Of a stretch of DNA of 64,000 nt, positions 1-63,803 are shown in pieces (the stretch's first letter is position 1; each line of letters opens with the position of its first letter). This stretch comes from Gossypium raimondii (taxonomy: Eukaryota; Streptophyta; Magnoliopsida; Malvales; Malvaceae): positions 56,766,094 to 56,830,093 of the forward strand of contig NC_068576.1 of assembly GCF_025698545.1 (NCBI RefSeq), read 5' to 3'. Under the pieces are notes generated by a model. It saw nothing but the letters and a program-made list of their open reading frames with translations. It was not told the DNA's origin and ran no database searches. The position numbers were made by a program, and so were the translations under genes.

Positions 1-245
1 AAATAAGCAAATTAGTCCATGCATGTTAAATTAAAAAGCAAATTAATTCTTTTTGTTAAAAATTTCATCAAATTCTACCGTTAAAAACTAGCATGGCTAA
101 CAGAATAATCGGACAATTGCACATGGTGTGCTATGAACTTGTTTGCTCTTTGATCTAACATACAAGGACTAATTTGGCAGTTTTTTAGTAGAGGGGGCAA
201 AATGCAATTCAACTCCAGTACAAAGGTCTCCATAGTACTTTTACA
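1..245. mobile_element. Foldback family 1, copy 1 (cut by window edge)
   Basis: Right part of a copy, ending CCATAGTACTTTTACA. It shares GAGGGGGCAAAATGCAA, TTTGCTCTTTGATCTAACAT and ACAGAATAATCGG with the other copies. It lies in an intron of the HDA15-like gene. Confidence 0.9.
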
Positions 246-3200
246 GTTAAAATTTTGAACTAGTTCATCCTCAAAAATAATTGAGCACCATAAGTTAATG
301 TCTGCTCCTTTTGTGTCTATTTATACCTTAATCACTGCAGTAGCAGAAGATGATATCGAACGGAGGTTGTAGCTGCCAAAATGAAAAAGTCGATGAAAAG
401 CCAAATTAAATGATAATCTGGACTGTACCAAACAGCAGAGAATAAACCACAAACCCGCCCTCAAGTACAACTAGCAACTTTCCACCCGAGAGGGTACTCA
501 ACATGTGTGTCATCTGTGTATAACCAGCAGGAGTCACCTGTAATGGGAAAAAAAGGTGACCATCATTATGCATCGCAAGGAGCACAAAAAACAAACCCAT
601 TTTACAAAATTAAAATTCTTACTCCATTTGATAAGTTTATAATAATTAGGAAATAACAAAATCAAGATGCATTTGCACGAAGAGATATGTCCTCTGAATG
701 CAGCCAATCAATCATTTTAATTGAAGTATACCGCCAAAGATTTGAGGTAATAATAACCTACTTTTCTAAAAAGTTCTCTTGATATATATATAATAAGGTT
801 CTCGATTTTTTTTCTGGCAATAAAGTTCTCTTGATTATATCAGAACAAAATAACGGAAACAAACTTACATCACAGCATCCTAAAGGATCACCACGAGCAG
901 CATCAAATCCAGCTGATATTATAGTAAAGTCGGGAGCAAACTTGGAAGCTGCAATTAGGGGTATGAAAAACCAATAATCGGATTAAAGCAAAAAAATCAG
1001 ATATCAACTAATGCAGGTCATTTGATTTCGAACTGGTGGCCAAGAACAAAATATACCGATCTAGAAATAGGATACTAATCATAGTTAACAAAAGGGAATA
1101 AAAACACAAATTCAGCCACTTTGGCTGATTTTCAAGCAATAAGAAATATGCCGTAGAGGTAGAGTCCTCTATTCTCTCTTAAAAAAAGTACATCGAGAAG
1201 CTATTATTAAGCAGCTTGTAGAAATCCTTTACAGTTCACAAAGTTAATAATCCTATTCATCTTAACAATTATAGATTTGAAGGATTCTTTCCCAATACAA
1301 TGCATTGTTCTCAAATTCACAAAGCATATAATTGATCTAATTCTTAACTAATAAGGCTTGGGAATTCCACACCTAGAAATTCCATCTTGATCTAAACAAT
1401 GTACTTTGAAATAGATGACTGAAAATGATAGATATATATGCATACACGTATATTTTTTTGAAAATGAAAATTTGAATGGGGTAGGCTTGGTTTGGTCATG
1501 CTAGATTCAAGCTGTTTTGGGTTCGGACCATTTCGAATTTAAATTCAAGTCATTTTCATGTTTTATTTAAGATTTCGTGTGTTCAGTTGGTTTCAAGTTG
1601 GGGTTTTTGAGGGTTCTGGCAGTTTTAGAGGTTCAAGGAATTTAGTATAAGTCACAGGCAACCACTAACTAGCCTTGAAGCATAAAGGTAAAAGTACCAT
1701 GGAGATTCATGTACTAGGGGTTAGATTGCATTTTGTCCCCTCTACTCAAAAAAATGAGCTAATTAGTCATTGTACATTAGACCAAAGAGCAAATTGATCT
1801 TTTCTATTAAAAAATTCATCCATTTATACTGTGACACGTGGCGTGCCATACGAGCCTCATGCTGGCATACAAGGATCAGTTTCTAACCGAAGAAATTGAT
1901 GGAATTTTTAACAAAACGATCAATTTGCTCTTTAATATAACATAAAATAACTAATTTCCCCATTTTTTGAGTAGAGGAGACAAAATACAATCTGACTCCT
2001 AGTACAAAGGCCTCTATGGTTTTCCTACTGAAGCATAAACTGTTTCACTATTTTGTATGGCAAAGATTGATGAAATGCATCATATCCCATATTCATCTTG
2101 CAAACTACAGTTGAAATGCAAAGATATCTCTGAATAAGGAATAACAACCTATTGGAAGCACAACGTGTTGAAATGCAAAAATGTAATCATTATCTCCAAC
2201 TCCACCACGACTCCATGGAATATTCACGCAATATCCTTCTGCACCCTTGGTACCAACCTACAAAATCAAATTGAAAAAAAGAAACATATGGTGCATCAAT
2301 TACCAAAGATACAAAAATGAATGGCTAAATGCTCAATTCAAGATCTAACTTTAGATCCAATTCACAATTACAGTACCAAACATCAATCCCTTTGTGTCCT
2401 AAGGACCTGATGCAGATAAGAAAACTACAGAACCAACATTCAATTTGGACTAACTCCGGTATTCCCACATATTAATGAGATAACTGGTGGAATTGAAATT
2501 ACAGAATTATTTAGTTTAATATTACAAATATTAATGCTAAAAGTCACATCAACCAGCCCCTAAGAGTCCTAAGGGATAATATGCAGTTGATATTACGATA
2601 TAAACCCATCTTTATTACCGTCTATATCTCCCTTTCTTCTCTGGTCTATTTCAAGGTGAGATGCTAAATTCCCAATCAATATGTAGCAATGCAAAACTTG
2701 TATAAATAAATAGTCAAGTACCTCAAAAGCTGAACCAGTACCAGGGTAGAACTTCCCTCCTTCATGTCTATGTAAGGATATGTACAATACCTACAAAGAG
2801 GTACAAGATATTGGTCAGGACATAGGCCTCCAGGACACTCAAGGGCAGAGGGGGACAGCAATGGTTCCCCCCCCCCCCCCAAAAAAAAAGAAAAATTGCT
2901 TATATAGTCCCTTAGTTTTTAGGAAATCACAAGTTAGTAAAATGGTAAATTGTACTTTGCCCCCCAAAAATTTATTCATTTTCGCCCCACCCCAAAAGAA
3001 ATAATTTCTTGGCTTCGACCTTGAGTACACCCCCCAAAAAAAAAAAGAAGAAAAGAACATAATAAACCAAAACCAGCAAAAGAAGAAAAGCAAGGATTTG
3101 GTTGGTTAGTGCAGCCTCATATGTGTTTTTTAGTTCTTACCATAAACTCAGGTCAAAAGCAACATAGCCAAACCAATTACCCAGCAACAAAGTTACCAGA

Positions 3201-6200
3201 AATGAATAGCATTAAAAAGTTGATCGATACGTTGCAAGTATAACTTTACGGTTAAGAAAGCTCACCGATTTATTTTGGTCAAATATCTCTTGTGTACCAT
3301 TTCCATGATGAACATCCTGAAATAGTGAATGGAGAGCCATTAACTCAAAATTTTGATGCCCCTACGCCTTCGTTTTGCCATAACTTCAAGAAGTTAAAGT
3401 AACTTACCCAATCAACAATGAGCACCTTCTTCGCCCCTGCAGCCTGTGCTGCTAATGCAGCAACTGCTGCATTGTTGTGGAGGCAGAACCCCATTGCTTG
3501 TGTGACACCAGCATGATGGCCAGGTGGTCGAACCTGTATCAGAGGTGAAATGCAGATTATGAGAGATAAGCAGTCATTGCATCTAGAGCATAGTATAGGT
3601 TGGTCATAAACTTTAAACATATTAAACAGAATACTAGTAGAACTCATACACACCAGAGCAAACCCATTTCTTACGCGTCCAGAAAATATTGCTGAAGCAA
3701 GATCTGCACATAAACCAGCAGCAAGTCTGGCAGCATGTGCTGAATGCTCATTAGCATACGTGTCAGGAGTAAAATAACTGCCAGTAAAAAACAACCCATC
3801 AAGTCAGATTGTGTTTCATTTTAGCATCACTCGAGAAATTGACATAGAGCCTAATAGATTTTGACACACAACACATACATTGATACCCTATCACTTCAGT
3901 GGCGGATCTTGGCATTAAATTTTGGGGGATTCGAACTAAAATTTTAAAATATTTTGAGGGTTTTAAAGAGAATTTTCAAAAATTTTGGAGGTTTAATAAA
4001 ATTTTACAAAAGCTTTTGAAGAGTCTAATTGAAATTTTTAAAATTTTTCAAAGGTTTAATGAGAAATTTCAAAAATTTTGGGAGGCCTAATTAAAATCTT
4101 TTGGGTATAATTAAAATTTACAAAAAATTTGGGTCTTAATGACCGTCCGCCTCTGCTATCACTCCCACACCCCTTCTCAGGGAAGTGCTTTCAAGCCACC
4201 CGTAAATGGAAGATAATTGAAGAAAGAACAAAAGTGTTCTTTTTCTACAAAGATAATATAAGCACTTCACAATTTCTATGCATGGATACATTTGGAGTAG
4301 GAAAAGACAAATGATATAACCTAGAAAACATTTGGCGGGTAAGTTCAACAACTTCAATATGCTCCGAGGAATGGACCTAAAGATTCCAAAAATAAAAACA
4401 AAAAGGCTTCAAAGACGGTCCTTTCAGTAAATATATAAACAGACAATCGGAAGAAGCAAATCAAACAAAATAGCTAATCACATCAACAAAATTAAAATGA
4501 TAGACTAGATGGAGCCATATCTCCAAGATAAAGAATGGTCCTCACCATTTGAAGCTCCTCCAGAGTGATTTCTCTAGCAGGAATTAAGCAGCACTTTCCA
4601 GGGAATATACCTGTATATGTCAAAAATTGCCATTTAATTGTTACAGACAAATCAAAAGCCTGCATATTAATTTAAGAAAGAAGCATAAGACCAAAATACC
4701 GGTAAAAGTACCATGAAGGTCTCTGTACTAGGAGCCAGATTGCTTTTTGCTCCCTTTACTCAAAAAATAAGCAAATTAATCACTGTATATTAGATTAAAG
4801 AGCAAACTAGTCCTTTCTATTAAAAGTTTCATCCATTTCTACTGTTAAAAGCTAACATGGCTAACAGAATAATTAGATAGGCGTGCCATGTGTACCTCAT
4901 TCTGATGTACTGGGACCAGTTTTTAATAGTAGAAATTGATGAAATTTTTAACAGGACTCATTTGCTCTTTGATCTAACGTATAGGGACTAATTTGCCCGT
5001 TTTTTAAACAGAGGGGGCAAAATGCAATCTAACTCCTAGTACAAGGCCCTCCATAGTACTTTTACCCCTAAATACCAGCAGCAGAAAGGCTAGCAGCAAT
5101 AGCTCGAAGACGATCTGGTCTTTCTGGATGTGGATGTGATTTTATTTCAACCTACGCCACCAAGCAAGCACCAGATACAAGAGAGCAAAAAGAGTTAAGA
5201 CACAAGTCCCACATAAGTAACAACAAAGAAGCAACCACAGATTCATCATACAGTTGTTTTTGCAGATAATTAATTATTTTAGTTCCGACGATAAAGTGAA
5301 TCTTTTTTCATGATTTGAGGTTATAATTTCTAAGATAATTGCATGATACTTGATCAAATACAACCATCAAAAGGAACCTCCCCCAAAAAAAAAAAAAGTA
5401 TCAACTCCTCATCAAAACTTTGAAGAGCAAAATAGAAGCAGTGCAACAAAAAAACTTTGCAAGCAAACAAAGAGACAGATTCCATTAACTTATAAAACTT
5501 CCACCACAATTCATACTCATATATTCAAATTCAATACATCAATCTTATCATGAAATGGTGTCAAACCACCATAAAATGTCATTCAAGTGGAAGATTCCAG
5601 GGAAGCATATAGAATACAGTGGCATACCTCTGAGTGCAGCAACATTCTTTCATCAAAACCAACTGCCGTAGAACAGTTTGAAGCTGAAGCCTCGGACCAA
5701 ATTTCTGCATCAAGAAGCGTAAACAGATTAGGATCACAAAAATCCCATGCCTATAATAGCTTTCCTGATCCTACCAACGGAAGTATTTTAAAGTTTCAGA
5801 GAAGAGTGGAATAATTCAATAGAGAGAAAGAAATTCCCAAGACTAGGATCTCTCAGTTGATATGGTGTATCTACAAGCAAAATTTTTTACCAGACCAAGG
5901 TTTTCTTGCTAGGGTTGTTTACTAACGAGGCAAATGTAATTCAGGATTCAGGCCAAAAACAGAATATAGAAGTAAAAGTCAACATAAAAAAACTAAATTA
6001 GAGTAAATTAGAATATTTCTACTGGTTCAAAGTGTGATAACAAGAGGCAAGTTAGCAATAATACATAGTAATGGCAAAAGCACCTTCACATTGAAAGAAA
6101 ACACTTAAATACATTAATAAATAAGCAAATAACAAATTAAAAAAATTCTATCAACCTCATTCAAAAGAGTGATTTAGATGCCAACATATAATTAAGGTTG

Positions 6201-8475: not shown

Positions 8476-8479
8476 TAGC

Positions 8480-9864: not shown

Positions 9865-12800
9865 TTATTTCCTTTGCATCCTGCAAAAACAAAATGACCA
9901 AAGTTGAAATTATGAAAGCTCTTTTGATTGCTTGAATTTACCATTAAGAACCACCAGCACTCCATTGATGAAATCAATGCGCAGCAACAAGTAAAGAGAT
10001 CCCGTTTTCTTAACCAATCAAGAATAGCAACTAGGAAAAATGTTGCTAACAAGTATATACAAGGAGTTAATATAACTTTTAGTCCCTGAACATAACAATT
10101 AGATCCCACTTTGGTACATGAATTTAACAACTAGGTCCATTTTGGTCCTTGAACACCAAAATGGACCTAGTTGCCAAGTTCAAGTATCAAAATGGACCAA
10201 AAAAAAAGTATAAGTACCAAAGTGGACCTGATTGTCAAGTTCAAGGACTAAAAAGTTATATTAACCCTATACAAAGTTATCTTCTTTATTGTTGCTAGTT
10301 GAGGACATATTACTTCAACCTCCCTCTCTAACAACTTAAGTATCAAGCAATATCTATCATTAGCCAGAAAAAAAATCTAACAATGAACCTTGATCTTGGC
10401 CAGGTGGTTCAAGGTGAATTACCTGAGAGGTCCCTTTGTCATAGGGACCTGATCAAATTAGTTCCTCTAATATTAAATGAATCAATTTAATCTATATACT
10501 ACTAAAAAAAGTCAAATAAGGCCTAATTAGAATAAAGTTAACATTTACTATTTAACAAAGTTCATATTTTTAAAGTTTTCATGATTCAGTAAATGAAATC
10601 TTTTGATTAGAATTGAACTACAATTGAAAAATAATAATTTAAGACATTTTAAACAGTGAATGTTAACTCTATTACAATTTCGGGTTTATTTGATTCTTTG
10701 TAATAGTATAAGGACTAAATTGATCCATTTAACAATAAAGGGACTAATTTGATGCAATCCCTCTAATACAGGGAACCTTTAGATACTTTAACCGGTGGTT
10801 CAACCATACACCATAACAAACCCTCGGCTAGTGGACTTACTGAAGAGCAGGGTTCCATACACCATAACAAACCCTAACAATGGCATAAGATGCAATTCTG
10901 CACATGAAATATGCACAGCAATATTATCCTAAGTACATGTCTGAGCCTCCCTAAAACTTCATCAGCTATAGGCAAATAGATAGCATTAGGATAAATAGAT
11001 AGCATTATGACAAATTTCCAAAAGAGAGGGGCAGATAGTCAGCTTTCGATACCTGAAAGATGAAATATATTTCTCAACGATTGGTTTTTGTTCGGTGCTG
11101 TAGGTGTACCATTTTTCTTTAGCTGCAACTAGATCACTGCCCTCAATATCTGCACATTAGTGGAAACTAATGAAATGGCAATTTGGTTGATAACTGGTAA
11201 AAGTACCATGAAGACCCCTATATTAAAGTTGGATTGCATTTTGCCCCCTCTATTTAAAAAATGGGTAAATTAGTCCTTGTACATTAAATCAAAGAGCAAA
11301 CTGACCCTTCTGTTAAAGATTCCATCCATTTTTACTATTAAAAACTGATCCCTACATCAGCATGAGGTACATATGACATCACATTTTACTTTCTGATTAT
11401 TCCATCAACCATGCCAATTTTTAACAATACAAATAGATGAAATTTTTAACAACAAAAAAAAACTATTTTACTTTCTGATTTAATGTAAAAGGACTAATTT
11501 GCTCATTTTTTGAGTAAAAGAGGCAAAATGCAATCTAACTCCTAATACAAAAACCTCTACGATACTTTTACCATTAATAAGTTGATAAAATGCAAATTTT
11601 GGAAATCGAGCATATGAACAAACCTTGAAGTAAAACATCTGTTTCACTAGAGTAGCTTCTCAATTTCCAGAATCTGTGACCATCGCCATCCCAAAATATT
11701 GGCTCTGATCTAACAGGATTTAACGGCTCATCCTCTTCAAGCATCAATTGCAAAGCAAAATGTCAGTTGAACATAAGAACACAGTTCCATTTGTGCAACC
11801 ATACAAAAAGCACCAAGGCAATGCTCAAATAGTATAAATTAAGTATAGGTAAAGATCAGTATTTTATGATCAATTTCAAGGTGCTGAGATATGATTTGCT
11901 CCATTGACCAAATGATGGTGAAACTGCAACAAGTCATTGAACATACCCTCGTCGACCACTGTCTCAGACACTTCCAATGTGCTTGCAAGAGTACGGGCCA
12001 CTTCAAGAGTTTGAGCCACTTCTGACTTTATTCTCGAAAGAAGCTCTTCATTTTCTGAAATGGAAAGAGGTGCACCATTTCTCATGAGAATAGCTTTGGC
12101 TATCTCGTCCTGCAACTTCTTCTTCATCTCTTTTTCAAGGTTTCTCTCCTACACAGAATTAGGACAAAACAGGCTGTGTCATAACATTAACATTAACACT
12201 ACCACTAACTCGATCTCAGTTGCCATATTCATGTCATTACCTTCTCCCTCTGTGAAAGAAGTTTCTCTTTTGCTTTCTTTTGTCTTTCAACAAATTTCAA
12301 GTTTTGTTTATCGATCCAGCTTCTAAACTCTCTGAAAGAAGTGCGACTTTTTTTATTCATACACTTCCATATGAATCTAAAACAAAAAAATACAAACACA
12401 AGCCTTACGTGGTGCTGAGAGCTTCATCACACAGAAAATTTAAGACTTTGAGCTTTTTAGAGGAATTTAATCGCTCGTATTTATCACCACCACCTACATC
12501 TAAACAATCCAACAATGGCTGCTTTAATGGATATTGAGAATCATTTATGTATTCTCCAAGAACTTGCACCCATGATTTTTCACTTAAGTTCTTATTTAAG
12601 CAAGGATACCTGCATAAAGATTTAGTTCGAATGATTGATATACGATTTAAAAAAAAAAGTAACTGAACGTTTATAACAATCTAGTTAAAACAAGCATACT
12701 CTTTTCCCAAATCCTTTTGCATCATGGATAGCAGTAGAATGTGAAACTGCACAATTGAAGGATGACGTAATTTGTGCTTGCGTTTACTTTTTCCAGTAAA

Positions 12801-24156: not shown

Positions 24157-24463
24157 GGTAAAAGTACTATGGAGGCCCTGATTAGGAGTTAAATTGTATT
24201 TTGTCTTTTCTTCTAAAAAAGAGAGAGCAAATCAGTCCATGTATGTTTAATTAATGAGTAAATTGATTTTTTGTAAAATTCTATCCATTTGTGACATATC
24301 ATTTTTATCTTATGTTGACTTAGAAGGATAAGTTTTTATCAATAGGATAGATGAATTTTTAATAAAATGATTAATATACTTTTTTTTATCTAAAGTATAT
24401 AGACTAATTTATTTTTTATTATAATTTAACTCAAAAAATAAAAACTTCTATAATATCAAGAAA
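24157..24463. mobile_element. Foldback family 1, copy 5 (degraded)
   Basis: Good left end GGTAAAAGTACTATGGAGGC. The interior is recognisable but AT-drifted, and the right end is poor. Intergenic, downstream of the peptidyl-tRNA hydrolase gene. Right boundary approximate. Confidence 0.75.
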
Positions 24464-30380: not shown

Positions 30381-33300
30381 TCAGATTTTTATCTCCGATG
30401 GGGCTTTGTCGGAGCCATTGCTGCATTTGGCAAAATACCATATTTTAAGTCAGATAATTCGGAAGGGAAACGGGAAGAGTTCCGGGAAAAAGAGAAGGCG
30501 AACGATAACCTGAGGTAGCTTAGAGCTGACATTCGATATAGACAAGTGAAGAAAACTAGGATATGCAAACCAATTGTGTAGAAAAATGCAAATTTTCGAG
30601 CATATCTGCATACTGAGGTAATTCATTACTGAATCAATGAACTCTCTATTAATACCAAGGGTTAATGTACTATATGAAATTTAACTTTCCAATTTGTTTT
30701 AAATTTTCTTTTATCCAAATTAATCTCTACATGGAACTTGACGATTATTTCAATATTAAAATTTGAGTATTTTTGTCCAAGTTAATATCAGATATTTCCT
30801 TTAAAAATTACACAAAAGGTTTAAACCCTAATGTATGAAAATTTGTTAAGTTCAAGAACTATCTTGAACAAAAAATTCAATCTCCAATGTTAGAGCACTT
30901 GAAAAAAATTTAGATCTCAATATGTAAATAATTGTTTGATTCAAATCCTAATATAAAAATAATTGTTAAATTCAAAAATTAATTTGGAAAAAAAAATTCT
31001 AACCCAAAATAGTTATCCAATTTAAACCCAAATAGTGCATTAAACCTAATACCAATGAATAACATAAACATTGCAAAATGGAAATTGTTTTCGCCACGTG
31101 TTATTAGACAATATGGTGAGATCACTTGAGAAATACATGCATATTTGAAGGCATGCATGGTAATACATGAAAAATGTAGACCTTACTACGCGGCCCCAAA
31201 CCGATTACTTGAAACATAAGTTGATCCACAGAGAGTGGTCTATCCTTGTAATAAACTAAAAATGATAAACATGAAATACGACAGGGACCTAGACTACCCT
31301 TGATGATAATGCTAGATGCCTCGAATCTACCGCAAGCTTTATATACGTCCTTGCACTCAAAGGAAAATGCAAAGAAGGGAATGGAAGATCCCACCAATTT
31401 AAGAATGCAATTCGACAATGAAATAAAACCGTACTTGTTTCCCATGAGAAAACGACCACTGCTGAGTGTGATTCGGTCTCTGAAGCCCAACTCCTTGTAT
31501 CTTTTTTCTCTCTATTAGAGAGCCTACTCAAATTAGTCCCTCTATTATTAAATAAATCAATTTAATCTCTATACGATTTAAAAGAATCAAATAAAGTGAA
31601 ATTAAAATAGAGTTAACATTTGTTGTTTAAAAAAAATATCATTTATTGTTTACAAAGTTAATATTTTTAAAATTTTTATGATTCGTAAATGAAATCTTTT
31701 GTTTAGAATTGAACTGCCATTGAAAAAATAATTTTTAAGACATTTTTATATAGTAAAGGTTCACTATGTTATAATTTGGAGTTATTTGATTCTTTTTAAT
31801 AGTATAGGATCTAAATTAATCCATTTTATAATAGAGGGACTAATTTGATCAAATCTCTATAATACAGGAACCTCCCAGGTACTTTAACCTAAAAAGAATT
31901 AGAACCTTGAATCTATCTTAACATTTGCAGAGGGAAGTAATACTTGAGCTTTGTTTCATCAGAGTCTTCGATTGAACCGAAGACATACGTACCATTGTTC
32001 CACATATAATGAAGCACACTGGCACGGATACATGAGTTATGCTTTAAAGAAGAAATGCGAGTATGAACTTTAATCTCGTGGGGCTCATGTAAACTCGAAC
32101 AAAACCAAAAATCCGTGAACGGACATTGGCTCTTGTCTTCTAAAATAATGTAATGGAAGAAGCAAAAGGGTCTCTGCAGGCCTAAGTTCAGATTTAAACG
32201 AGATGACTCGAGTATGTGAATCTAACAGAACTATATATTACTGAAAGGAGCTCAAGCTTACCAACCTTTCTAGAGAAAGCTGCAAAGGGATTAATATCAT
32301 CCTCATACATCTTCTTGTACTTGGAATCAACATCTGAGGAAAAACCACTTTCAAGATCTTCTGCGTACTTAAAAGTGATCGAATGAAAGAATTTCAACTT
32401 CAAGAAGCTAAAGACACTAGATAAAAATTATGAGAGGTTCCAAAAAGAGGTTACCTTTTTCAATCCTCTAGAAATTACTTTCTCCTGGTTATAGTCCGGG
32501 AATCTTTCCATAAAGTTTAACGTTGTCAGTTTTTGTTTTCTCTAGGTCTGCAGTTTGTGCCCTTATCTTCTCCTTTAATTGCCTTATTTCCTGTGAAATA
32601 CGGAACATTGCAGAAACCATAACCTTAATGCGTAAAATAAAAATTCCATCAAATGCAAGTATGAGTAGACATGTCAACAGCATACTTCTTCAGTTTCTTG
32701 CAAACGCGCCCTAAATCGATTACGCTGGTTGCAGATCACTTTCAGCATTGAGGCCTGGTCTTTATCTGAGGAAACTTGCTTCTGATCTATGTTCTTCTCC
32801 AGAATAGGTAATGGACTAACAAATCAGAACAAACTCATTCTGAAAACTGAACTATTTCTCTTGCAAAACATACTTCAATTTGATGTCAATTTTTTCCTGT
32901 CTATAAATATTCATTACGGTCCATGATATGAAGGATTTAAATGCAAGTTTAACATTATCAGTCAGAAAAATATTTCTTGCAACAATATACCGTACACATG
33001 TACCACTGCACTTCTTAACAGGTTAAACCATGCCACCCTCAATGAGTGCTTAGAACAATGATATAGATTCTTTCCTAACCTAACATTATCTGATTAAAAT
33101 CAGGTTGGCAAGTGTTGCTGATGCTGGTTCTTTACATGTAACTAATTTTTTATTAAGGTTGGACAATTTGACTTCTTTAAGAGGCCCCTTGGTAGAAGAC
33201 AAAGAAATAAGAAACGAGGAAGCAAAGTTCTCCGGAGATTATACTCCATACTGGTTATGGCTAGAAATGACATGGAGCTAGAATGGATTTATGCAATACA

Positions 33301-36461: not shown

Positions 36462-38163
36462 TTCGCGGGGTTCGGATCTGTTTTTAGCGTTGTGTGAAAA
36501 AACGGATTCTCAGGATTTGATTTTTTTTTTGAGAGCTAATGAAGATTTATGGGAATTTGAATCTGCTTATATAGATCTGAGAGAAGCTTGAATTTGAAAG
36601 GTTTCTTTCAAAATAAATACCTTTCGGTTGCATTCTTTCACTTCGCGGTTACTTTCAAACTCATTACGCGGGTAAGGCTTAGTGGTAGAATTCGTAAATT
36701 TAGACACTGTATTATTATAAATAGCTTAAATATATTTCAAGTCCCTGTATTTTTTGTTTATTTAAAATTTAATCCCTTTATTTTTTTGGATTTGAAATTC
36801 AGGTCTACTTAATATCATTAAAATTTTATTGTTAAATGTAACATTTAAAAAAATACTTACTCGGGAGTCATGTAATAAAAAACATGTAATGCATTTGAAC
36901 TTAATAGAATAAATTTAACGATATTAACACTTAGACTTATATTTTAAACACAACAAATTGAGAAATTAAATTTCACAAATAAAAGTAAATGATTAAATTT
37001 CAAATATATATAGTAATTGAGCGTACTTTAACCTTATAAATATGTTTAAATTTGGTGTGTGTTTTTAATTTCATCAGATATTCTTAAACCATTATCTAAA
37101 TTTGAAATTAATCCTAAACTTAGAGATTTACGTATCAAGATCAGTCTAATCTTTAGCTTAGAATTAAAATTCAATCCGAATATAACATATCAATAGCGTA
37201 TTTAAAACAAATTTTCTATCTAATTTTAATAATAAAAATACAATCATTTATGATATTTATCTTTAATTTCGAATCACAAAATTATAAAATAAAGTATTGA
37301 TGGTGTTAAATTTAAGAAATTACCATAAAAGATAGCTAATAGTGATTGATGTAATATGTGAATCAATTTTTTATTTATATTAAAAATAATATTATATACG
37401 TATACGTGTAAAAGTTATAATTTTAAAATGTAAATTGTTTAAAAATAATATATAATAAAAAATTAGTTATAAATTTAAAATTTTACTATTTCGATTAGCA
37501 CGAGTTCAAATACCAATCATATACATATTTTTCTTAAATTTTGTTAAAATTAAAAGACTAGAATACCCTAAAATATAATTTATTTTAATTAAAAAATATC
37601 TCCATAATTTCCTAATTACAAATATCGCCCTTGCATTTTAATTAAAAATTCAAAAATAATGACATTTTGAGATCTTCCTATTTCTTTCTTACTTTTAAGC
37701 AAAAAATTTATTCATCTACAATTGAAAGCAAGCAAATATTTCCAAGCATGCTCTTATCTAAATATTATTAATTAATCTAAATTATTATTGTTAATTATTT
37801 GCACTAAAATATTGAACAGAACGCTTCAAAGTTTTTCTAAATAAAAATTTCAGTCAAAATAACTTAATCTAACATAAAATTAGATATCAGATGTTCCAAA
37901 AAATAACTAATGTTAACAATTTGAATTAACAAACATTATAAAAATAAGAGACTAGAACCATAAATTAGACCTAAAATTGTTAGACAAAAGAAACTCAACA
38001 ATTCAATTTTAGAAAAATTACATATATAGCAAAGGAGTGTTTCAATCTGAAAAAAGATATACAATTAAAATAAGGAAAAAACAAAACAAAAGCTTTAAGG
38101 TAAAATAAATTTAAAAAGGAAAAAGGCAAGGATGTAGAAGTGTGATACAAGTAATGTAGGGTT
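36462..38163. other. Intergenic between CASP-like pseudogene and PP2A-A
   Basis: Holds one foldback repeat (about 36730-37035), then AT-rich sequence. 38090-38163 is likely 3' UTR of the PP2A-A gene. No further gene is seen. Confidence 0.5.
36730..37035. repeat. Foldback (MITE-like) repeat
   Basis: The left arm begins AAATATATTTCAAGTCCCTG and includes AAAATTTAATCC and AGGTCTACTTAATATC. The right arm is an approximate reverse complement ending ATTTCAAATATATATAGT. Arms are about 110 bases. A related single arm occurs at about 51265-51420. Confidence 0.55.
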
Positions 38164-38375: not shown

Positions 38376-41300
38376 CTAAACCAATTATTATCACTCTTAA
38401 AATGCTTTTATTAAATTTATTAGTGTAATATTTTCAAATAAAAAATCATAAAAAATTTAATAGTGTTAACTATCCAACATACATTTTTAATTTAAAAATA
38501 AAAAAAACTAAAATTTTAAAATAAAATTTAAAAAAATCACGGAAGTTATTGTACTAAAAATCAAGTTGTGTTGTCCCTACTCAAAAATAACAAATTAATC
38601 CCTATATTTTCTATTAAAGAGCAAATTGATATTTTTGTTAAAATTCATCTATTTATGTGGTTAAAATTGACATAATTAACAAAATAACCAAAAAGTGACA
38701 TGTTACGTGCCACATGTACCTCATGCTAATATACAGAACAATTTCAAACAGTAAAATGGATGACAATTTTAACAGGACTAATTTACTCTTTAATCTAACA
38801 TATAGTGACTATTTTGCTCAATTTTTAGTAAAGAACAAAATGCAATCTAAATCTTAATATAAGAGCCTCCACGGTATTTTTATCGAAAAATTTAACCGTT
38901 TAAATAATTAAACTTCATTTCTAAATACAAAAAATAAAATGACTAGATCCCTCGAAATAAAAGTAAAAAAGCAATAAATAAAAAGATACAAGAACTTGAA
39001 ACATATTTTAGCCTATAGAGTCTAAGCAAAAGCCAAAAAGAGACCTAATGAAACAAAATAGGCATTGCATATGAAAATTTTGCATGCTAGTAGCAAACTC
39101 AACCCCTTTTTTCTATATCAATATCCGACACATTTTCGAACAAGAGGGTAGAATATACTCCTCCGAATATATGATTTGCTTTTTAAAACGAAAATAAATT
39201 TACTTACAGATTGATCAACAATAGGGATAAGTGACTGCAACACCTTGGCGACATTAAATTTGATGTTCGGAACCCTGTGCTCATGCAATTTTTGGTCACA
39301 TAATTGAAGTCAAAGGATTCAAACAAATAGTTTCACATCGAAAACTGGTATCAGCATTACCTATCTTTAGAAGCATTAATAACCACGGGCAGAAGTTTTG
39401 AACAAGTAATATCTTTTCCCATAACAGGGGCAAGTAGAGAAACTGCGTGTAGAATGGTCATCCGATATAGATAATGCGGGTTGTTTATCATGTCCAAAAC
39501 CTGTTCAATAGATTATCCGGAAAAGAAATCTTATTCAGACCAGGCATCATCTTCGGGTATCTTCTTATAGATTTATAAGAGAACGAGACTGACCTGTGGA
39601 ACTATGTGCTGCATTGCCCAATCGGGTCCAAATTCTTCTGCGAGGCGCTTAACGTTATTAGCAGCAGCATCACGGATAGAATAAACCTAAAATTGCAACG
39701 ATGAAGTTAGAAAATAGAGGATTCTCAAATAGGCAGGGAGAAGTTCCAGATTGACATCGACGTAAATATTTCATAATGAGACACTTCAACAGGAATAGAA
39801 TCATAAAGAACCGAGCACATGAGCTCTATTTTTTCTTTTGCTCCATATCAAAGTTCTGTGCACCTTATCTTTTAACCATTGCATGCAGAGTGCACCAAGT
39901 TTGTCATCGAAGAAGCCAACACCCAATTGGCTTGCCAATAAAGGTATGTATTCTATTATTGCAAGTCGAACCCTCCAGTGCCTATCCTCTGCGAGCTCCA
40001 CAATTGCAGGCAATAGGGACTGGGACAGCAAATCAATTCCAATTACCTGAAATGATAGGGCATGTAAAACGATGTGGCGTTCAGAAATTGACGCATATTA
40101 GAAATAGAAAACAAAACGGCCGTTCTTAATAAATCCTAAATTACGTCCCACCTGGTTGACTTGATCAAGCTTGCTAATGATATTCAGTCGGACATCTGGA
40201 AATTCATCTTTTAGAAGAGAAAGAAATATAGGAAGCAATTGTTCTATGGTCGCATCCTACAACCATCAAACAAGATAACATTATCTTGTGTGAAGAAAGA
40301 ACGCTATTTCAATTATAATGCAACAGAACAATAGGAAACAATGCAATCTAGAACAAATATGAGATGCAACAATAATAAATCAGTGAGACATCTAATTTGT
40401 CCACTCATCACAAAATACACCTACATACTTGCAGTTAACATGAGGATAGGCGACCAGAAAATGTCATAAAAGGAGGATGAGCATCTATTCAACAACCAAT
40501 ACTACCCAAATAGAATGAATTTCATAGAGGTGGACCGTATGAGAACAAAAAGAGACGGTATTTTTACCTTCCCCAAAATGGGCGCCATTCCCATTATAAC
40601 TGAAGCCAAAGCAGAACGGACATGTTGGGATGAATCTGTTGATAGTTCCTAAAGCAGGCAACAAGAACTAATTTAGAAGGACATAGCAAGGGTGGAAAGA
40701 CTAGATTACCACTAGAAATGAAGTGAAAATTTGGATGGAGTAGTCAAAGTATTCCATAAGCATTTTTACCTTGACACAAGGAAGAATGTTCTGAATTGCT
40801 AATTCTGAATTCAGAATTCGGCAAAATTTAGTTACTTTCCCAGCAGCAGCTATCCGGACTTCAGCTTCATTATCACGAAGTAGGCGAACATATGCAGGTA
40901 CTAGGTCCGACCTAAACATGTAAACTTTATCATTCAATGATAGTTGATAAGCATGTCCAAAAATAAAAGTTCATTAAAAGTAATTTAAATAAGTTTTGAA
41001 TGGCTGAAGCCAATTGTAGAGAGGAAACAAGGAAGTTCATCAATATTGACCAAGGGAATAGGAAGAAGGTAAAACAACAGAAAATAGGTAGAACAAAAGA
41101 TGCCAGAACAGCAGAAAATAATATGGTTTATGCCTCATGATTATAGAAGTTACCTAGTAGGCTCAGGACCAACAGCTTCACACAGCTCATACAACTGATT
41201 TGCGACCATGTAACGGACACGCCAAGACTTGTCCTAGAAGGAATAGTAATACCAATAAAAAATAACTCAAAACTATATATTACCATATTTAAGAATGGGA

Positions 41301-45716: not shown

Positions 45717-48700
45717 TTAGGCTCCAGGCCGATACCATTTCCATCTAAACAATCTTGACCAAAAGCCAATGGGCTCTCTTGCTGCTGCTGGTAGCTCTTC
45801 AGGTTCCTTAAAGTTTGCTTTCTCACTCAACTCTTCAAACGAGTCAACGACATTTTCAAGCCTGGCGACGAATTCTATCAAAAGTGAAGTGAATGTTGCC
45901 AGTGACAACGCGCTTGCATTCTCATATGTTTTAGACTCTTCCAAGGGTGGTGATGTATCAGTAGTAAAAGAACGGGGTGCAGGCCACGATATCTGCTTCT
46001 TCAGTAAGTCGTTAGAGGGAACAACGGGAGAGACTGAAGGGCGGACACCTACATTAGTCTGCTGGCCGTCCCAACTATTTGGTATAGGAACCGATTTGAG
46101 ATCAAGTACTGCTTCACTGAGGGACTTATAAACCAAGACTTTGTGTTCTTCGTTATCCGAGTTTCGTGAATCTTGAGGCTCTACTGGACTATGTGGTCTA
46201 TTTCCGATTTCCCAACTCTCGGCATTGACAAGAAGGTAGGATTTCCGGTCAACTTTGTTTTGCAACTCCTCAGCAGCTCCAAGTACATCGAATAGCATGT
46301 CACGAGAACCTAATTTCTCCATCTTTTTAACTTTGTCGCCAAGCTCACACAATAGTCTAGCACCTGTAGCACCTACCCTCTGAAGTTCATGATAAAAGAC
46401 TCGTCTCCGTTCAGGTGGAGCCTATACAAAAGTTACTAAGATTTGAGATACATGAAATCGAGGACAATAGCAACACCATCTCTTCAGAGGGAAAAAGAAA
46501 AGTGGCACTAGCAAATGTAAAGCACATTTCAATGAGGGGTAAGTAAAAGTACTGTAGAGGCCCTTGAACTAAAAGCAAGATTGCATTTTTCCCCCTTTAC
46601 TAAAAAAATAAGCAAATTAGCCCTTGTATGTTAGGTCAAAGAGCAAATTGGTCTTTTTTGTTAAAAATTCATCCATTTCTACTATTAAAAATTGGTGTGA
46701 CTGATGGACCAGTTTTCAACAATAGAAATGGATGGAATTTTTAACAGAAGGATCAGTTTGCTCTTTGATCTAACATATAGGGACTAAATTTGCCAATTTT
46801 TTGAGTAGAGAGGGCAAAATGCAATCCAACTCCTAGTATAAGGGCTTTCATGATACTTTTACCATGAGGGGTAGCTTTAGAACGAATATTCCAATGGGTT
46901 TGGTGTTCCACTAACGATCACTTGGGGATCCTACTGTCAATACAGCTATGGAACAAACAAAGCAAGAAGAAAGGAAGGTACTTGTAATCATATTGGCAAT
47001 CAATTGCATAAATTTGAGACATGAAAGAATATATATACCTGTATTTCTGAAAGTATACAACCATGTAATGCCATGACCATGAATGCACAATGCCTCAATG
47101 CTCCACTTAGTCTGGCATAATTCTTCCAAGGATAACCAAGTGACTTGTAAGGGCCATGGGGAGGCTCCCATATGGCAAAACCCAACTTCACAATGGGAAA
47201 AAAAAAGTCAGAGAAAGGGAAGAAAAGTGAAAGACGAAACATAAATGCAACAAATTTACCAGAGCTTCCTCTTGACTTGTAGATTCTACAGCTGATCTAT
47301 AGCCATTGTAAACTGGATCATCAGAAGCTTGATAAGTTAGGATTCTGGAAGGGACCCTTTCATATTCAACACAATTAAGGTACCCTTTAACACATCCTGA
47401 TCAAACGTAGAAGGAAACAAGCATGAAGATGCCATTAATTTCAAATTCAGATGAGATACATGAATTAGAAAACATTAGGTGCATGCTATAACCTTCTAAG
47501 GAATTTGCCACACTCATAAAATTCTTGGCCACCAAATTGTGTAGATCCTCACCAGCCCAGATTGGGTAAATGCATACATTAACAGCTAAAGAAACACCAG
47601 CACCAAGTGCAATCAGAAAAAATCGTGTCACAGCTGTATGAATGAAGTCCCCTGTCCTATACCCAGATACTATTACGAAACAATACGTCAAAACAAACAC
47701 TCGGAATCCATACTCGTAAGGCTTCATTGTTGGGTATAGTTTTGCATAAGTTGAAAGAAATCCTGGCGATAGATGGAATAATATCAGAGAAAACATAGTT
47801 GCAAATTTTAAGAGGGACCACTAAGTAATAATATGACACATAAGATGAAAAAACAAGACCACAAAACCATACCTGTGATAAAGATGCTTATAACAACAAC
47901 AATTTCTTCCCATTGTCCAGCCAACTCCGACAATTCTGCCACAGCAAGAGCAAGCCCTCCAGCCGATAATGTCCCCAGCCCACGGTTAAATCCTTTGCTA
48001 AGAGTTGCTCCTGTAAAAAAAAGGTGGCCATTAAAGTTGTAAATAGAACAAAACATATGGTTCTTTATGCTAGTCAGAAAAAATGCAAACAGGAAAGAAA
48101 TAATGAATTAAAAAAGTTATGGATATAATCAAATAAAGTTTGCCTGCTCATACTGTATTTCATGTTTACTGGTTTGACATACATATATTTAGAATAGAAC
48201 CAAATGGTGAATTGGCTTTTTATGTACTTCAATCAGTAAAACATTATCACATGCGTTGCCCACAGTGAGCATAAAAGCGAGTATGATGAACAAAGCCCAG
48301 GGGAATAAACAAAAACAGAACCAATACCAAAACAAAATACACTCTCTCATGTACCAATATCAAAACAAAATGCACTCTCCCATGGATAAAAACAAATTGC
48401 ACTCGTTAATACAAGGCGGCAACATTAAGCCTCTTTCTGTTAGTTGGTTCTTGCTTTTAGAAACGAAAGAAATATGTACATTTGCATGCAAAAGGCCAAA
48501 AGTAAGTACAACTTTGAAGAATTAAAAAAACTGCAATTGCAGTTTTTAAAGCAACAATCCAATCAAACCAATAAACAACCCCTCAAAAAGGAAAGAACAT
48601 TGTTAAATAATAAAATAAAATAAAACTACAGGCAAATCTATGCAACAAAAACAAGAGTATACGATTGCAGATGAACAATTGAAAAAATAATTACTAGCAC

Positions 48701-49159: not shown

Positions 49160-51940
49160 GAGAACCAGAAACTTCTTTTTTTTTCTTGCACAGATAGTTG
49201 AGAGAAGGTATGAGATGAATCACTGTGGGATTCCCTTGAAAAATCTGTATTAATTAGTAATTAATATTTTTTTCTTTGAAGGAATTCAAATGCATTGGAC
49301 GAGAAGAAGGGGCAGAAGAAACGACGGCGTTTGTTTAGTTGGTGAGTGACGTACGAATGAAAGTACCAAACACTGGGGACCCGCGCAGGCGGCCTAGACC
49401 GTATCCCTTCAAGTTTAATTTCAACCGTTCATCGTTGGAGCCGAATTTAGAGACCTCGTAATTTGTCTACCATTGAGCAAAATACTGAAAATGCCTTATA
49501 TACGTAAGCTAAGCTTTAGGTCAAATTTGTGCAAAAAAGTCTTGTGCAGATTTTCTTGGATAATAGAAAACATCGAACAAAATGTGTTTTGTTTATATTT
49601 TTAAAATAATTTTTAAAAAGTAAAAATATGTAAAATTTTCAAAATAAATTTTTTTGTGTTTTTACTGTTTTGTTTTCTACAAGTAAAATTGATAAAATAA
49701 TTATTTTTAACAATGAATTTACATTTGTAAAATAATTTTTCAATAATTTTTAATATTAAATCTGGCCTCTCATTCGAATGCATATAAATGAAAAATATAT
49801 ATATTCCATTTTTATAGAAAAAATAGCATGTTTTCATTATTAAATGAAAAAGCACAGAAAACTCAAATGCTCCAAACATAATTTCCTTTTAACGAATTTC
49901 TAACTGAGGTAGAAGAAAGCTCAAAAAATATTTCATTAAATTGACGTGCAATGCATATCATAAAATATTTTTCTAAACTAATAATGCATACTAATTTATA
50001 TGGAAAGCAAAAATAAATAAATAATTACTATTTGATCCACATTCAAAAGCACCTAAAACAATCACCACTTAACGAAGGATTAACTAATGTTCAACATCAT
50101 ATTTATAATCATTTTTCTGAACTCTTTTACCTCATTGGTGTGAACGATTGAGAAACTGAAGTAAGGGCGATAGATCCAATGCCGTGAGCTCCCATGATCT
50201 AGCTATATAGCTTTCACTTGTCACTTTGAGAGCTTGATTTTTCTTCATAGAGTATTGATTCTTATCTTTAAAGCTCATTTCATAACGACGATTTGAGATC
50301 CAAGCATCATTCTTTTTAGTGTGTATAAGCTCAATGAAGAAATTGGGTAACGGCAAGTGAAAAACAAATAACAGAAAAGGAATCATTGGCATTTCTAGGA
50401 TTTAATCATTGGCATAATGACTTATTTGATCCTCTAATTTTACAAAAAAATTATTTTAGTTTTTTATTTAATTTTTCGTCTTTTTTAACCTTAATTTTAC
50501 GTTTTACCCCATAATGAATAAAAAAATTAATATTTTTTAACTTTGCTAATGTTACATATATCACGGACCGCAGTTCAAAGTCCGTGACCATCGCATCAAA
50601 TGCATCCGATGGAAGTTTATTATGTAGATGGGGATCATTTGGCCCGCAAGAACTGGCCTAATTCAGTAACCTGTTGGAGAAACCTGTCAGATTGAAGCCT
50701 GGTTGGCCTGATAATGAATATATGACAACTTAGAAAATTGATAGAATCAAAAGATTATATTAGATTTGATATGACATATCTTGTAAATTACATGATTTAA
50801 TTCATTCATTGTGTGTGTTCTTTTTGTTGTTCTTTTGTTGCTTCTTTTAGCATAAATCACTTCTACTATACAAGTTGGTGCCTTGGATGACTTCTAAATG
50901 AATTATCACTTGAAGTAAAGGCTAACTTAGGCGAGTTTGGACAAACGGATAGTCTAAGACCGCACAGATCGCGAGACGAAAGATCTAGCCCTGTGACACA
51001 TACACGTGGATGACGCTCAAACATTTATTACTTAATAATTCACATGTATGCCACATTAGTAAAGATAGTAAACATTAACTTTTTCATCTATTTTGAAGTA
51101 ATTTGACAAAAAAATATAAGTTCAAGACTAAAAAAGCAAAAAATTAAATAGAGGTTAAATAATTTTTTTAAATTAATATTTTGCCTGAATCTAATGTAAT
51201 CCATGGGCTGGTAGCAAGCCCAAGGTGACCGTGTATCTCTAATATCAAAACCATTTTACAGAAAGGATAAACTATATTTCAAGTCCCTGTGTAATTTATA
51301 TATTTAAAATTTATTGTATCTACTAGTCTATCTATTTTGAATTTACCAACTAAGTACCGGCATTTTTATCCACTTTAATATTTAAATTTAAAAATGTAAA
51401 ATGTTTGAAGATGTGTCTTTCTGAAATTATATCATATTTCCTTACCTAACAAAAATAAATTTAATTATAAAGTTGGTACGAAAAAGTAAAACAATAAAAA
51501 TAAACTTAATTGTCTAACTGGGGCTAGAAATTATAATAACATTACTTTTATTTATATTAATTTTAATTTACGAGTTAGTTACGTATTCACAATGAAGAGG
51601 TTTTTTTTATTTTTAATATACTAAAAGTAAAGAAATAAATTTTAAAATTTAAACTTCTATCATGTAAATTTGAAACGAAATTTTAATCTTTACTCTAAAT
51701 AATTCTTATTATAAAATTTTCCTAACTTTTAAGTAGTTATTTTTGAAGTTTAAATTTTAACGAGAACGAAGCTTTATTACATAATTTTATTTTTTTTCTT
51801 CTCATTTATTAATTAGTTAATTACCCAAAATCTAAATAAAAAAAAACCTAATCTAGCATCAAAAAATGACCCTAAATGTCTATATCATATTCGACCACAA
51901 AGAAACGGCACCGTTATCTCTTGAATTTTTTTTCCTTTAT
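49160..51940. other. Intergenic, ALMT promoter side, no gene seen
   Basis: 49160-49450 is the likely ALMT leader and promoter (contains GTGACGTACG). 50132-50392 has a minus-strand open frame that I could not tie to any family. 50410-51175 looks like an old foldback element with other DNA inside it. The rest is AT-rich. Confidence 0.45.
50410..51175. repeat. Possible foldback element with a long interior
   Basis: The left end (ATCCTCTAATTTTAC, TTTTTAACC) is roughly mirrored by the right end (GACAAAAAAATATAAGTTC, GACTAAAAAAGC, AAATAGAGGTTAAA). The right arm closely resembles the right arm of the element at 55950-56400. The interior 50560-51010 is less AT-rich and unidentified. Confidence 0.35.
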
Positions 51941-53630: not shown

Positions 53631-53635
53631 AAGGT

Positions 53636-54620: not shown

Positions 54621-55727
54621 GGGTTTTTATTAAAATAATATTAAAATATTAAAATAATATTTTTTATTTATTTATCAAAATGGTCTAAAAAAACAGTTAA
54701 AAAAATAAGAAAAGTAGAAATATGGACCTGCCATAGCGTGTCTGTGGCTAGAGGTGCTCATGGGCCGGGCGGCCTGACTCGGCCCGATGGCCCGCCCGAA
54801 ATATGGGAGGGTTTGGGTAAAAATATAGGCTCGAAATATGAGCTTGGGCAAAAAAACGAGGTCCGATTAAAAAACGGGCCGGGCCTCGGGCACAACTTTT
54901 TTGGCCCGGGCCCGACCCGGCCTGGCCCGAATATAATAAATATTTTTATTATTTTTTATTTTTTAAATTTTAAAATACTTTTATTAAATTTTTTAAATTT
55001 TAAAATTTTTTTAAAATACTTTTTTAATTTTTTTTAATTTTAAAATATTTTTAAAATACTTTTTTAATTTTAATTTTAATTTTTAAAATAATTTTTTGGT
55101 ATTTATTTAAAAAACGGGCCGGGCCGGGCTCGGGCTTATGAATTTTTTTCCGGGCCGGGCCTGTGCAAAATTCTAGGCCCATATTTCGGGTCGGGCCCGG
55201 CCCATGAGCACCTCTATCTGTGGCATAGGCGACACCAACATATTCGTATATCGGCTATTTTTTCGTAATTTTTTCTGGATTTTATTATTTTAAAAAAATA
55301 TTATTTTCTAATTTTATTATTTTATATTATTTTTGAAATGTATTCATTTAGTGTGTTTTTTAAATAAATTTTTAAAAAAAAACCCTTATTTCGGTCATTT
55401 GTTCGTATTTTTTTCACGGTTTTTCTTACTTTCAATAAAAACACTAAATTAATACATTTCAAACATAATATATTAAAATAATGTAAAATAATAAAATTAG
55501 AAAATAGTATATATTTTTAAAATAATAAAATCTAAAAAAATATAAAAAATAGTCGAAATACGAACATATTGGTGCTGTCTCTGCCACAGGCACTTTTGGT
55601 GCCGCCTGTGGCAGGCCCATATTTCTACTTTTTTATTTTTTAAACATTTTTTTACCATTTTAATAAATAAAAAAAATACTATTTTGATATTTTTTTAATT
55701 TTTTTGTATTATTTTAGTAAAAAACCC
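54621..55727. mobile_element. Non-autonomous MULE-like foldback element, interrupted by a hAT element
   Basis: The termini are inverted: the left reads GGGTTTTTATTAAAATAATA and the right ends TATTATTTTAGTAAAAAACCC. The arms stay complementary far inward (AAGTAGAAATATGGACCTGCC against the reverse complement of GGCAGGCCCATATTTCTACT). Flanks are GCCACCGCA (54612-54620) and GCCACCGCG (55728-55736), a 9-bp duplication with one mismatch, as expected for Mutator-like elements. A second pair of arms (near 55225-55360 and 55440-55580) forms the inner stem. No protein is encoded. Removing the inserted hAT element leaves about 630 bases. Confidence 0.8.
54749..55216. mobile_element. hAT-type MITE nested in the MULE-like element, 468 bp
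   Basis: A perfect terminal inverted repeat of at least 22 bases begins TAGAGGTGCTCATGGGCCGG. An exact 8-bp duplication TCTGTGGC flanks it (54741-54748 and 55217-55224). Both are hAT hallmarks. The arms are GC-rich (GGGCCGGGCC runs) and the middle is almost pure A/T. Its perfect ends show it is younger than its host element. Confidence 0.92.
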
Positions 55728-61476: not shown

Positions 61477-61878
61477 TCAGCTCATCGGATCCTCCTCTTC
61501 CTCTTCCTCCGGCGCTTCGTTCAGGTCCAAAGCACCGTTCTCCGCCACGGCTTCCCTTCTATTATTATTATTATCGTTGTTATTATCAATACCATCCTTG
61601 ACGTCATCGTCATCTTCATCGACTACCGCAACCGTTTTCTCAGACTCCACGGCCGCCCTCCACCCTTCGCTTCCTCCGCTTTTGTTGAAATACTTAACCA
61701 CCGCTTTCATCCTCCTCAGTATAGCGAAGAACTCCTCCACTTCCTCCTCTTCTTCCTCGCCAACGCCGCCGTCTTCTTCCTCTACCTTCGTCACCTTCTT
61801 CTTCTTCTTCTTCGTTGACTCCATTGTTACTCCGTCTTTCCTTTCTTTCTCGCTCCTTTTCCTCTTCTCCTTCTCCAT
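61477..61878 (-). CDS. NIMIN-like NPR1-interacting protein, 133 residues
   Basis: NIMIN proteins bind NPR1/NIM1 in the nucleus and tune salicylic-acid defence genes (family knowledge). The intronless frame begins MEKEKRKRSEKERKDG, basic and suited to a nuclear signal, then a poly-Lys run. The core is EEVEEFFAILRRMKAVVKYF at about residues 45-64, the NIMIN block with its paired Phe. The C-terminal LDLNEAP is an EAR repression motif (LxLxL/DLNxxP type). Length fits NIMIN1/2 (about 120-142). Glu, Asp and Asn homopolymers make it low complexity, and two coding trinucleotide runs may vary in length. The frame is open upstream to 61986, but the ATG at 61878 fits the family. Confidence 0.85.
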   Translation of the reverse strand: MEKEKRKRSEKERKDGVTMESTKKKKKKVTKVEEEDGGVGEEEEEEVEEFFAILRRMKAVVKYFNKSGGSEGWRAAVESEKTVAVVDEDDDDVKDGIDNNNDNNNNRREAVAENGALDLNEAPEEEEEEDPMS

Positions 61879-61989
61879 AACTCTCCTAAATCTAAATTTT
61901 TCACAAAATATTTGAAAATTTCTCCTCCTTTCTAACGCATCAATAGTTCTTTTTTGGCCAACAAAATTTCCAAAAAGAAAACACACAAA

Positions 61990-63429
61990 GGAATTTGATC
62001 TGGTTTTTAAGAGTGGGAGGGTGAATGGATTTCTTATATTACAACGGCCATGACTAACATAATCAAAGTCTTACTTTAACCCATTTTTATTCTCTTTCTT
62101 ACTTTTTTTTTCCTTTAATGATTTTAATTAATTATACTAATATCATAATTCATAAACTTTTGATTCTGTTGAAAATACAACAAATATTTATATTATAGAA
62201 ATCTTTGGACAAGCCATCTTAATCTTTTTTATAAATATTTTCATCCATATAATAAATGTACCGGAAACAACAATTGCTTTTTATTTATGGAAAAAATATT
62301 TATCTACCTATTATTATGATTTTTACTTATTTCCTATATTTTCGTACCTTTAAATTTTAATTATTTTATTATTCATATTTCAAATTCAACTTCTTCTTTT
62401 TACAATGCATAAATTCTATCCAAAATTTTCAGAATCGGATTGATGATTGAACTAGTCAAATCATTTGTTTGTTGATTCGATCGATTCATTTGATTCAATT
62501 AAATAAATTATTAAAAAAATTAAAATTCAATTCATTCGACTGGTACCCATTTTCAAAATTCAATGCCCTTCTCTAGGCTGGTAGCTTGACCAATCTAATT
62601 CGGTTCAATTAAATGAAAAATGCGCTTAAGTACTGCACTTGAACTTGACCTTCATTGTTGTTACACTAGTCACGATGCCGACTAAGCTAAAACTAAGTCA
62701 AAAAATTCAATTGTTAACACCTTTAAAGCTTTTCACTTGTGTGGTATTTTAAAATAAGAAAAATACTTACTTGCTAATCATGTAACAAATTATAAAAATT
62801 AAATTTAATAAAAAATAATAATGTTAACAATTAAATTTAACATTTTAAAATTTGGAAAAAAAAATTAAATTCTAACACAATTTTAACATTGTATAATAAT
62901 ATTGGATACATTGTTAATAAAATTTTAAATATTAAATGCAAGAGTTTACTAAAGTAATATTTAATATTGAGGTTGATCACTTGATTGCCCATCTTTTTAA
63001 ATTAATTATTATTTTATTAATATACTGAAAATATTTGGTTTTTTGAAATTCGACACAATCGCTTTCAGCCTTTTGATGGCGATGTAATGACGTCATCATA
63101 GTTACGTAAGCACACGTTATATGGAGTGGGTATCATGGGTGTACTAATGAAATGCTTGAAACGATAAGGACGATGCATCACGCGCAAAGTCGGCAACGCG
63201 CTAGCACCGTAAATGTAAGAGGGAATAAAAATAGGTGGGCCCACCAGAACAATGGTGCTAGTGGACTTTTATATTTGTCCGAAATGTAGGAAGAGAGAGG
63301 GTAACGTCTATGGTGATATTTTATTATAATGGGATTTTGGGAGTTAAAAAAAAAAATTGTGGTTGAGAGATAAAAGTGCGAAAATTATAGTGGTTTGATC
63401 AAGTTATATTAAAAATGAAAAAATTGTAA
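61990..63429. other. Promoter side of the NIMIN-like gene, otherwise AT-rich
   Basis: A TATA-like AATATAAG (minus strand, near 62034-62041) lies about 160 bases before the start codon. 63060-63330 is less AT-rich and contains the paired ACGT sites listed separately. No gene is seen. Confidence 0.4.
63088..63109. promoter_or_regulatory. Paired TGACG-type bZIP sites (as-1-like)
   Basis: TGACGTCA at 63088-63095 is followed by TTACGTAA at 63102-63109. The two TGACG/TTACG starts are 14 bases apart; the classic as-1 element has 12. TGA-class bZIP factors bind such pairs and drive salicylate-responsive genes. The pair is about 1.2 kb upstream of the NIMIN-like start. It could instead serve a gene beyond the right edge. 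Confidence 0.5.
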
Positions 63430-63803
63430 GTAAAAGTATCAAAGTCGCCATCGTACTATGATTCAAATTATATTTTATTTTTTATTTAAAAAATAAGTAA
63501 ATTAATCATTAACTTATTATATGTTAGATTAAAGAGTAAATTGATTTTTTTTGTTAAAAATTATTTTCTATTGTTAAAATTTGGTCTCTATATGTCAAAA
63601 TGAGGTACTCATGGTACATCATGTATAACTATATAGTTATTCTATCAACCACGTCAATTTTTAACAGTAAAAATAGATGAAATTTCAACATAAAATATTG
63701 GTTTGCTCTTTGGTCTAATGTACAAAGTCTAATTTCCCTTTTTAGTAAAGGGGAAAAAATGCAATTTGATTCCTAATATAGGGGCTTTCATGGTACTTTT
63801 ATT
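63430..63803. mobile_element. Foldback family 1, copy 8
   Basis: Ends AGTAAAAGTATC and GGTACTTTTATT. Flanks AAAAATTGTA (63420-63429) and GAAAATTGTA (63804-63813) agree at 9 of 10. Intergenic near the right edge. Confidence 0.92.

Follow-up and report, generated by a model that had tools for sequence, protein, structure and literature searches.

What kind of transposase leaves ten base pairs of duplicated target beside its elements, and how strictly does it keep to that length? The question is raised by a 64,000-nucleotide stretch of the cotton Gossypium raimondii genome (contig NC_068576.1, positions 56,766,094 to 56,830,093; hereafter the window) that carries eight copies of a palindromic, or foldback, element with the shared ends GGTAAAAGTAC/GTACTTTTACC. 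In our view the eight are very probably remnants of a high-copy, non-autonomous miniature inverted-repeat transposable element (MITE) of Mutator-like type, ~378 bp in length with ~154-bp terminal inverted repeats, that was moved by the transposase of a Mutator-like element (MULE). Membership of the Mutator superfamily is argued from two features, arm length and duplication length.

Eight copies with these ends, inverted arms of about 150 bases and a density of one copy per 8 kb had all been described in an earlier note on this DNA, and all three descriptions are borne out in the window. A blastn search with copies 2, 3, 4 and 7 as queries (E ≤1e-3) recovered the eight copies plus one stray 29-base match (50444-50472), and an nhmmer profile made from the eight window copies together with 39 from the genome recovered the identical eight places; neither search found a ninth copy of the family in the window. 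The profile also matches, weakly, the right ends of two relatives (10675-10793 and 31781-31889). In the 378-bp consensus of the same 39 genome and eight window copies, the arms pair over ~154 bp each and enclose a centre of ~70 bp. An exact 10-bp duplication flanks copies 1, 2 and 7, with nine of ten positions matching at copies 3 and 8, eight at copy 6 and seven at copy 4 (Table 1). The left end of copy 1 (CGTAAAAGTACC), read directly from the sequence upstream of the window, is preceded by GTTAAAATTT (10/10), whilst the boundary of copy 2 is set by the duplication itself because the right end of that copy is eroded.

Flanks were then compared across the genome, with copy ends placed by a 21-base terminal motif, blind to the flanks. 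The sample of 59 comprised 39 of the 40 best genome matches to copy 3 (the 40th being copy 3 itself, counted under the window), window copies 2, 3, 4, 7 and 8 (with copies 1, 5 and 6 omitted) and 15 of 30 loci found by their end pattern, which were retained if a second end matching at least 15/21 bases lay within about 250-650 bp, repeats being dropped. Of 4,292 candidates the 39 resemble copy 3 most closely, and they therefore favour well-kept copies. The duplication was 10 bp in 33 copies, 9 bp in 12, 11 bp in one (L041, which becomes 10 bp if its end is shifted by one base and is counted here as 11) and 6 bp in one, with none in the remaining 12; permuted flanks gave about 1/59 in all. Mean flank identity reached 0.675 at register 10, against a permuted null of 0.293 (z 20.9), and 0.439 at register 9 (z 7.4), and was close to the null at registers 8 and 11 (0.314, z 1.8 at the latter). 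A weaker signal at register 13 (0.326, z 3.3) is taken as an effect of composition, because no copy comes within two mismatches there.

The lead of 10 bp is independent of any single sample: it is the length found at 4/5 window copies, 21/39 copies resembling copy 3 (9 bp in 10/39) and 8/15 end-pattern loci (9 bp in 2/15). The composition of the 33 assigned 10-mers reveals neither TA nor TAA as a fixed core. The earlier note had spoken of a consistent 10-bp duplication, and this holds for the main length but not for its constancy, with 9 bp found in roughly one in four of the copies to which a length was assigned; the tabulation at 8, 9, 10 and 11 bp that it had proposed, run on these 59 copies, points to 10 and not to 8, and the claim survives it.

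The same figures bear on whether the family could instead be a hAT-type MITE with 8-bp duplications and flanks made longer by chance. hAT MITEs are common in plants, and the window itself holds a hAT-like element (54749-55216) with an exact 8-bp duplication (TCTGTGGC). At register 8, however, flank identity is 0.320 against the null of 0.293 (z 1.3), not one of the 59 copies matches there exactly or within one mismatch, and the arms greatly exceed the short terminal repeats of hAT elements; a hAT origin is on these grounds highly improbable. Nor are the 9-10-bp duplications those of PIF/Harbinger or Tc1/mariner elements (3-bp TAA/TTA, or TA). The features found, long terminal inverted repeats and a duplication in the 8-11 or 9-10 bp range, are those of the Mutator superfamily. 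Ten had been called unusual in the earlier note, a view that does not hold against the published lengths: duplications are of 8-11 bp in MULEs and of 9-10 bp in the plant MUDR clade, according to the available part of one study (PMC6446971), and of 9-10 bp in Mutator MITEs, according to that of a Brassica MITE survey (PMC3991616), so that 10 bp lies within the norm. The portion of the Brassica survey available reports duplication lengths of 2, 3, 8 and 10 bp among its MITEs, with one family classed as Mutator.

Hallmarks of a MITE are present: short length, terminal inverted repeats, many copies and duplications of set length at the target site. The assembly comprises 751 Mb in 281 contigs, 13 of which were seen to be 48-63 Mb. 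In it copy 3 drew 4,292 first-look candidates, the best 40 of which were scored, each with at least 79% identity in the better orientation, and the exact 21-base end occurs 127 times (a reversed control pattern, 0 times). Ordinary inverted repeats or duplicated genome segments that never moved as mobile elements might be thought to account for such a pattern, since the arms form stable hairpins by consensus pairing and one pair of places (L069/L070) shares flanks. The 40 best matches are, however, spread over all 13 large contigs, and the copies combine common sharp ends with site duplications that differ from place to place, which leaves this explanation next to no credence. Outside the genome, copy 3 found no match in phages or plasmids, and a 25-base internal pattern no exact match in the viral-contig or genome-contig collections searched.

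Identity to the consensus over aligned parts is 82-89% for the 39 genome copies and 74-91% for the window copies and, because of this divergence, the family is taken to be old and probably inactive today. The consensus centre contains two inverted CACGTG motifs resembling a G-box, yet CACGTG is found in just 12/47 copies, and we propose no regulatory role for it.

At 378 bp the element is too short to hold a transposase gene, and the earlier note had suggested a search for an autonomous gene sharing its ends. A PF10551 search of the genome gave 2,055 first-look candidates for MULE transposases, 150 of which were scored, each above the cut-off; 32 distinct loci of these 150 were examined, the flank being limited to ~1.5 kb at 26 of them, and none was a transposase gene with the ends of the family. 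The 30 loci viewed with ~1.5 kb on each side gave zero profile matches, the lone end-like match being one of 11 bases (L091). Six further stretches of 9 kb, four of them widening loci among the 30 and two new, included five without a profile match above 1.3 bits and a sixth that holds a complete, separate MITE. Two of the 9-kb stretches (L112 and L113) are alike, but only internally, so that their ends are not defined.

Two candidates for a longer element were set aside. The first, a MULE match at C9:49422917 with an exact MITE end 2 kb away, turned out to be a transposase-like gene beside a separate and complete MITE, and the second, a pair of inward-facing ends 7.5 kb apart (C6:60064507 and 60072042), proved to be two separate MITEs. 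The gene of the first candidate, at 2460-4373 on the minus strand of the stretch C9:49419600-49428600 (L109), is an open MULE-transposase-like frame of 638 residues, the separate MITE lying complete at ~0.9 kb from the 3' end of the frame; the gene is presumably MUSTANG-like.

Certain points weigh against a Mutator-like MITE and must be set beside the evidence above: 12/59 copies have no duplication at the threshold used, no transposase gene with the same ends was found among the 32 of 150 scored loci, and the outermost bases of the family (GGT...ACC) are not diagnostic.

Help with the question of length comes from a relative. A second MITE, at 10413-10793, has at its right end the outer part of the main-family profile, and used as a query it drew 1,025 first-look candidates genome-wide. 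Among 21 copies (20 of 40 other listed places, mostly full-length, plus the window copy, and without a one-by-one permutation control) the duplication was 10 bp in 12, 9 bp in three, 8 bp in one, 11 bp in one and absent in four; the window copy has an exact 10-bp duplication by hand, yet was left in this tally as 9. Register identity was 0.705 at 10, against a null of 0.359 (z 10.3), and 0.418 at 9 (z 2.0), with an unexplained value of 0.468 (z 3.6) at register 6 in this small sample (n=21). In both families the duplication is mainly of 10 bp with a 9-bp minority. A third element, at 36724-37033, has a 9-bp duplication, and its membership of the same group is only suggested.

That 10 and not 9 is the main length in two families, and that no autonomous partner was found, could be read as the mark of a transposase that belongs to none of the named plant superfamilies and prefers a 10-bp stagger. 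Arms of this length, a minority of 9-bp duplications and the abundance of MULE matches nonetheless fit MULEs without any new enzyme, and the partner search covered 32/150 scored places, leaving a novel enzyme unlikely. Returning to a MULE origin, an extension of it is that a single MULE lineage, cutting with a loose stagger whose centre is 10 and not 9 bp, mobilized at least two MITE families, and that its autonomous member is unseen or extinct here; this we put forward tentatively, with doubt slightly outweighing confidence.

The movement of DNA transposons in general proceeds by binding of the ends, excision, staggered insertion and repair. For the present family we infer the following course: a MULE transposase made elsewhere would have acted in trans by binding the GGTAAAAGTAC ends, would have excised the element and joined it to the target at staggered breaks of mostly 10 and sometimes 9 bases, in cut-and-paste fashion, and host repair would then have filled the staggered gaps to give the direct duplications.

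Table 1. Elements of the window, with their ends, flanking duplications and setting (bases matching in brackets)
Element	Position	Ends	Flanking duplication	Remarks
MITE copy 1, right part	1..245		GTTAAAATTT, right copy at 246-255	element starts 56 bp upstream of window
MITE copy 2	1687..2029	right end eroded	GAAGCATAAA, 1677-1686 / 2030-2039	HDA15-type intron
MITE copy 3	4701..5066		CCAAAATACC / CCTAAATACC, 4691-4700 / 5067-5076	HDA15-type intron; right duplication spans splice donor
MITE copy 4	11196..11572		GTTGATAACT / ATTAATAAGT (7/10)	
MITE copy 5	24157..24434	left end good; right end lost		
MITE copy 6	38531..38884	left end decayed	ATAAAATTTA / GAAAAATTTA (8/10)	flanks AT-rich, weak
MITE copy 7	46542..46863		ATGAGGGGTA (10/10)	ALMT intron; most of centre missing
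MITE copy 8	63429..63803		AAAAATTGTA / GAAAATTGTA (9/10)	
Related-family MITE copy	10413..10793	GGTGAATGTAC / GGTTAAAGTAC	GGTGGTTCAA, exact, 10 bp	profile match at right end
Probable second copy of related family	31520..31889	left end decayed	no readable duplication	start approximate
Third element	36724..37033	GCTTAAATATA / GTACTTTAACC	TTATAAATA, exact, 9 bp	
Foldback of 1.1 kb	54621..55727	GGG...CCC	GCCACCGCA / GCCACCGCG, 9 bp (8/9)	looks Mutator-like
Element of 468 bp	54749..55216	TAGAGGTGCTCA...TGAGCACCTCTA	TCTGTGGC, exact, 8 bp	looks hAT-like; nested in the 1.1-kb foldback

The earlier note had placed six of the eight copies in introns, and this can be sustained for three of them, with a fourth likely. 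Copy 2 lies between exons of a minus-strand gene for an HDA15-type histone deacetylase, and copy 3 between two exons of that gene, matching residues 22-42 (window positions 5077-5142, E 5e-06) and residues 40-72 (within 4495-4671, E 5.5e-05) of PDB chain 6j6t_A; a longer frame running from the exon adjacent to copy 3 into the MITE found no match. Copy 7 lies between exons of an ALMT gene. Copy 1 is probably also within the HDA15-type gene, because the exon at 409-609 extends only as far as residue 306 of 364.

The site of copy 3 can be described more closely. Written on the minus strand, its right duplication is GGTATTTAGG, of which the first bases are the final base of the exon and the GT of the donor (the splice site having been read by eye), and the far copy of the duplication is GGTATTTTGG. 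The element appears to have inserted at the predicted 5' splice site of the HDA15-type gene and to have duplicated the splice donor and, because GGTATTT is kept in both duplications, the exon would still have a donor.

The copies are unevenly distributed along the chromosomes. On contigs C1 to C9, 73 of 94 exact ends (100 listed of the 127 that exist, less six on C10) fall within 5 Mb of a contig end, where 18% would be expected, and 30/39 full MITE matches are likewise close to contig ends. The figure for MULE places is 8/50, these being the first 51 of the 150 listed with one on C183 removed; many of them may be host genes and not transposons. The window lies ~0.9 Mb from a contig end, in the zone where copies concentrate, and its density is therefore at least partly regional. 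Two occurrences of one outward-facing pair of MITE ends lie ~50 kb apart on one contig (C5:56428656-56429532 and 56478651-56479527), which suggests a segmental duplication.

Taken together, these results measure cleanly how long the target duplications of one plant MITE family and one relative are, and show that a group of elements can habitually make 10-bp duplications and, in a minority of copies, 9-bp ones; many of its copies would therefore be mis-called under a rule fixed at 9 bp. The family has also lengthened introns in the distal parts of chromosomes, and one of its insertions duplicated a predicted splice donor. The known picture of Mutator-like elements is not overturned.

The family itself may well be present in repeat libraries. 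Six stretches of the element, each of 16-18 bases, found no match in the literature searched (a search that left repeat libraries and most subscription papers outside its scope), and the 11-base ends do occur in 18 papers, though in no transposon paper as judged by title and the start of the abstract. No title found in searches on cotton or Malvaceae MITEs names the family. The GrTEdb database lists 12 Mutator elements for G. raimondii, with no MITE class in its table, as far as the available part of its description goes (PMC5467567), and the available parts of four further papers (PMC12550479, PMC10004981, PMC3338460 and PMC6264596) contain nothing that bears on it.

Three systems invite comparison. 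The BraMu-1 family of Brassica (PMC3991616) is likewise a Mutator MITE family and is apparently the one behind the 10-bp duplication class of that survey; its host is different, and the likeness is one of description. Group 50 of the plant MUDR clade (PMC6446971), which includes a Gossypium raimondii element, has terminal repeats of 30-320 bp and, where indicated, 9-10-bp duplications, as here; its members encode a transposase, however, for which the window family would be too short. Finally, the barley MULE Hvu_Abermu (PMC9168764) has terminal repeats of 138-145 bp and a duplication length that varies within the family, as it does here. The balance is different, with 9 bp at 267/278 copies, 8 bp at 10 and 10 bp at a single copy, against the 10-bp majority of the cotton family, and the ends of Hvu_Abermu (GGG...CCC) are unlike those of the window family.

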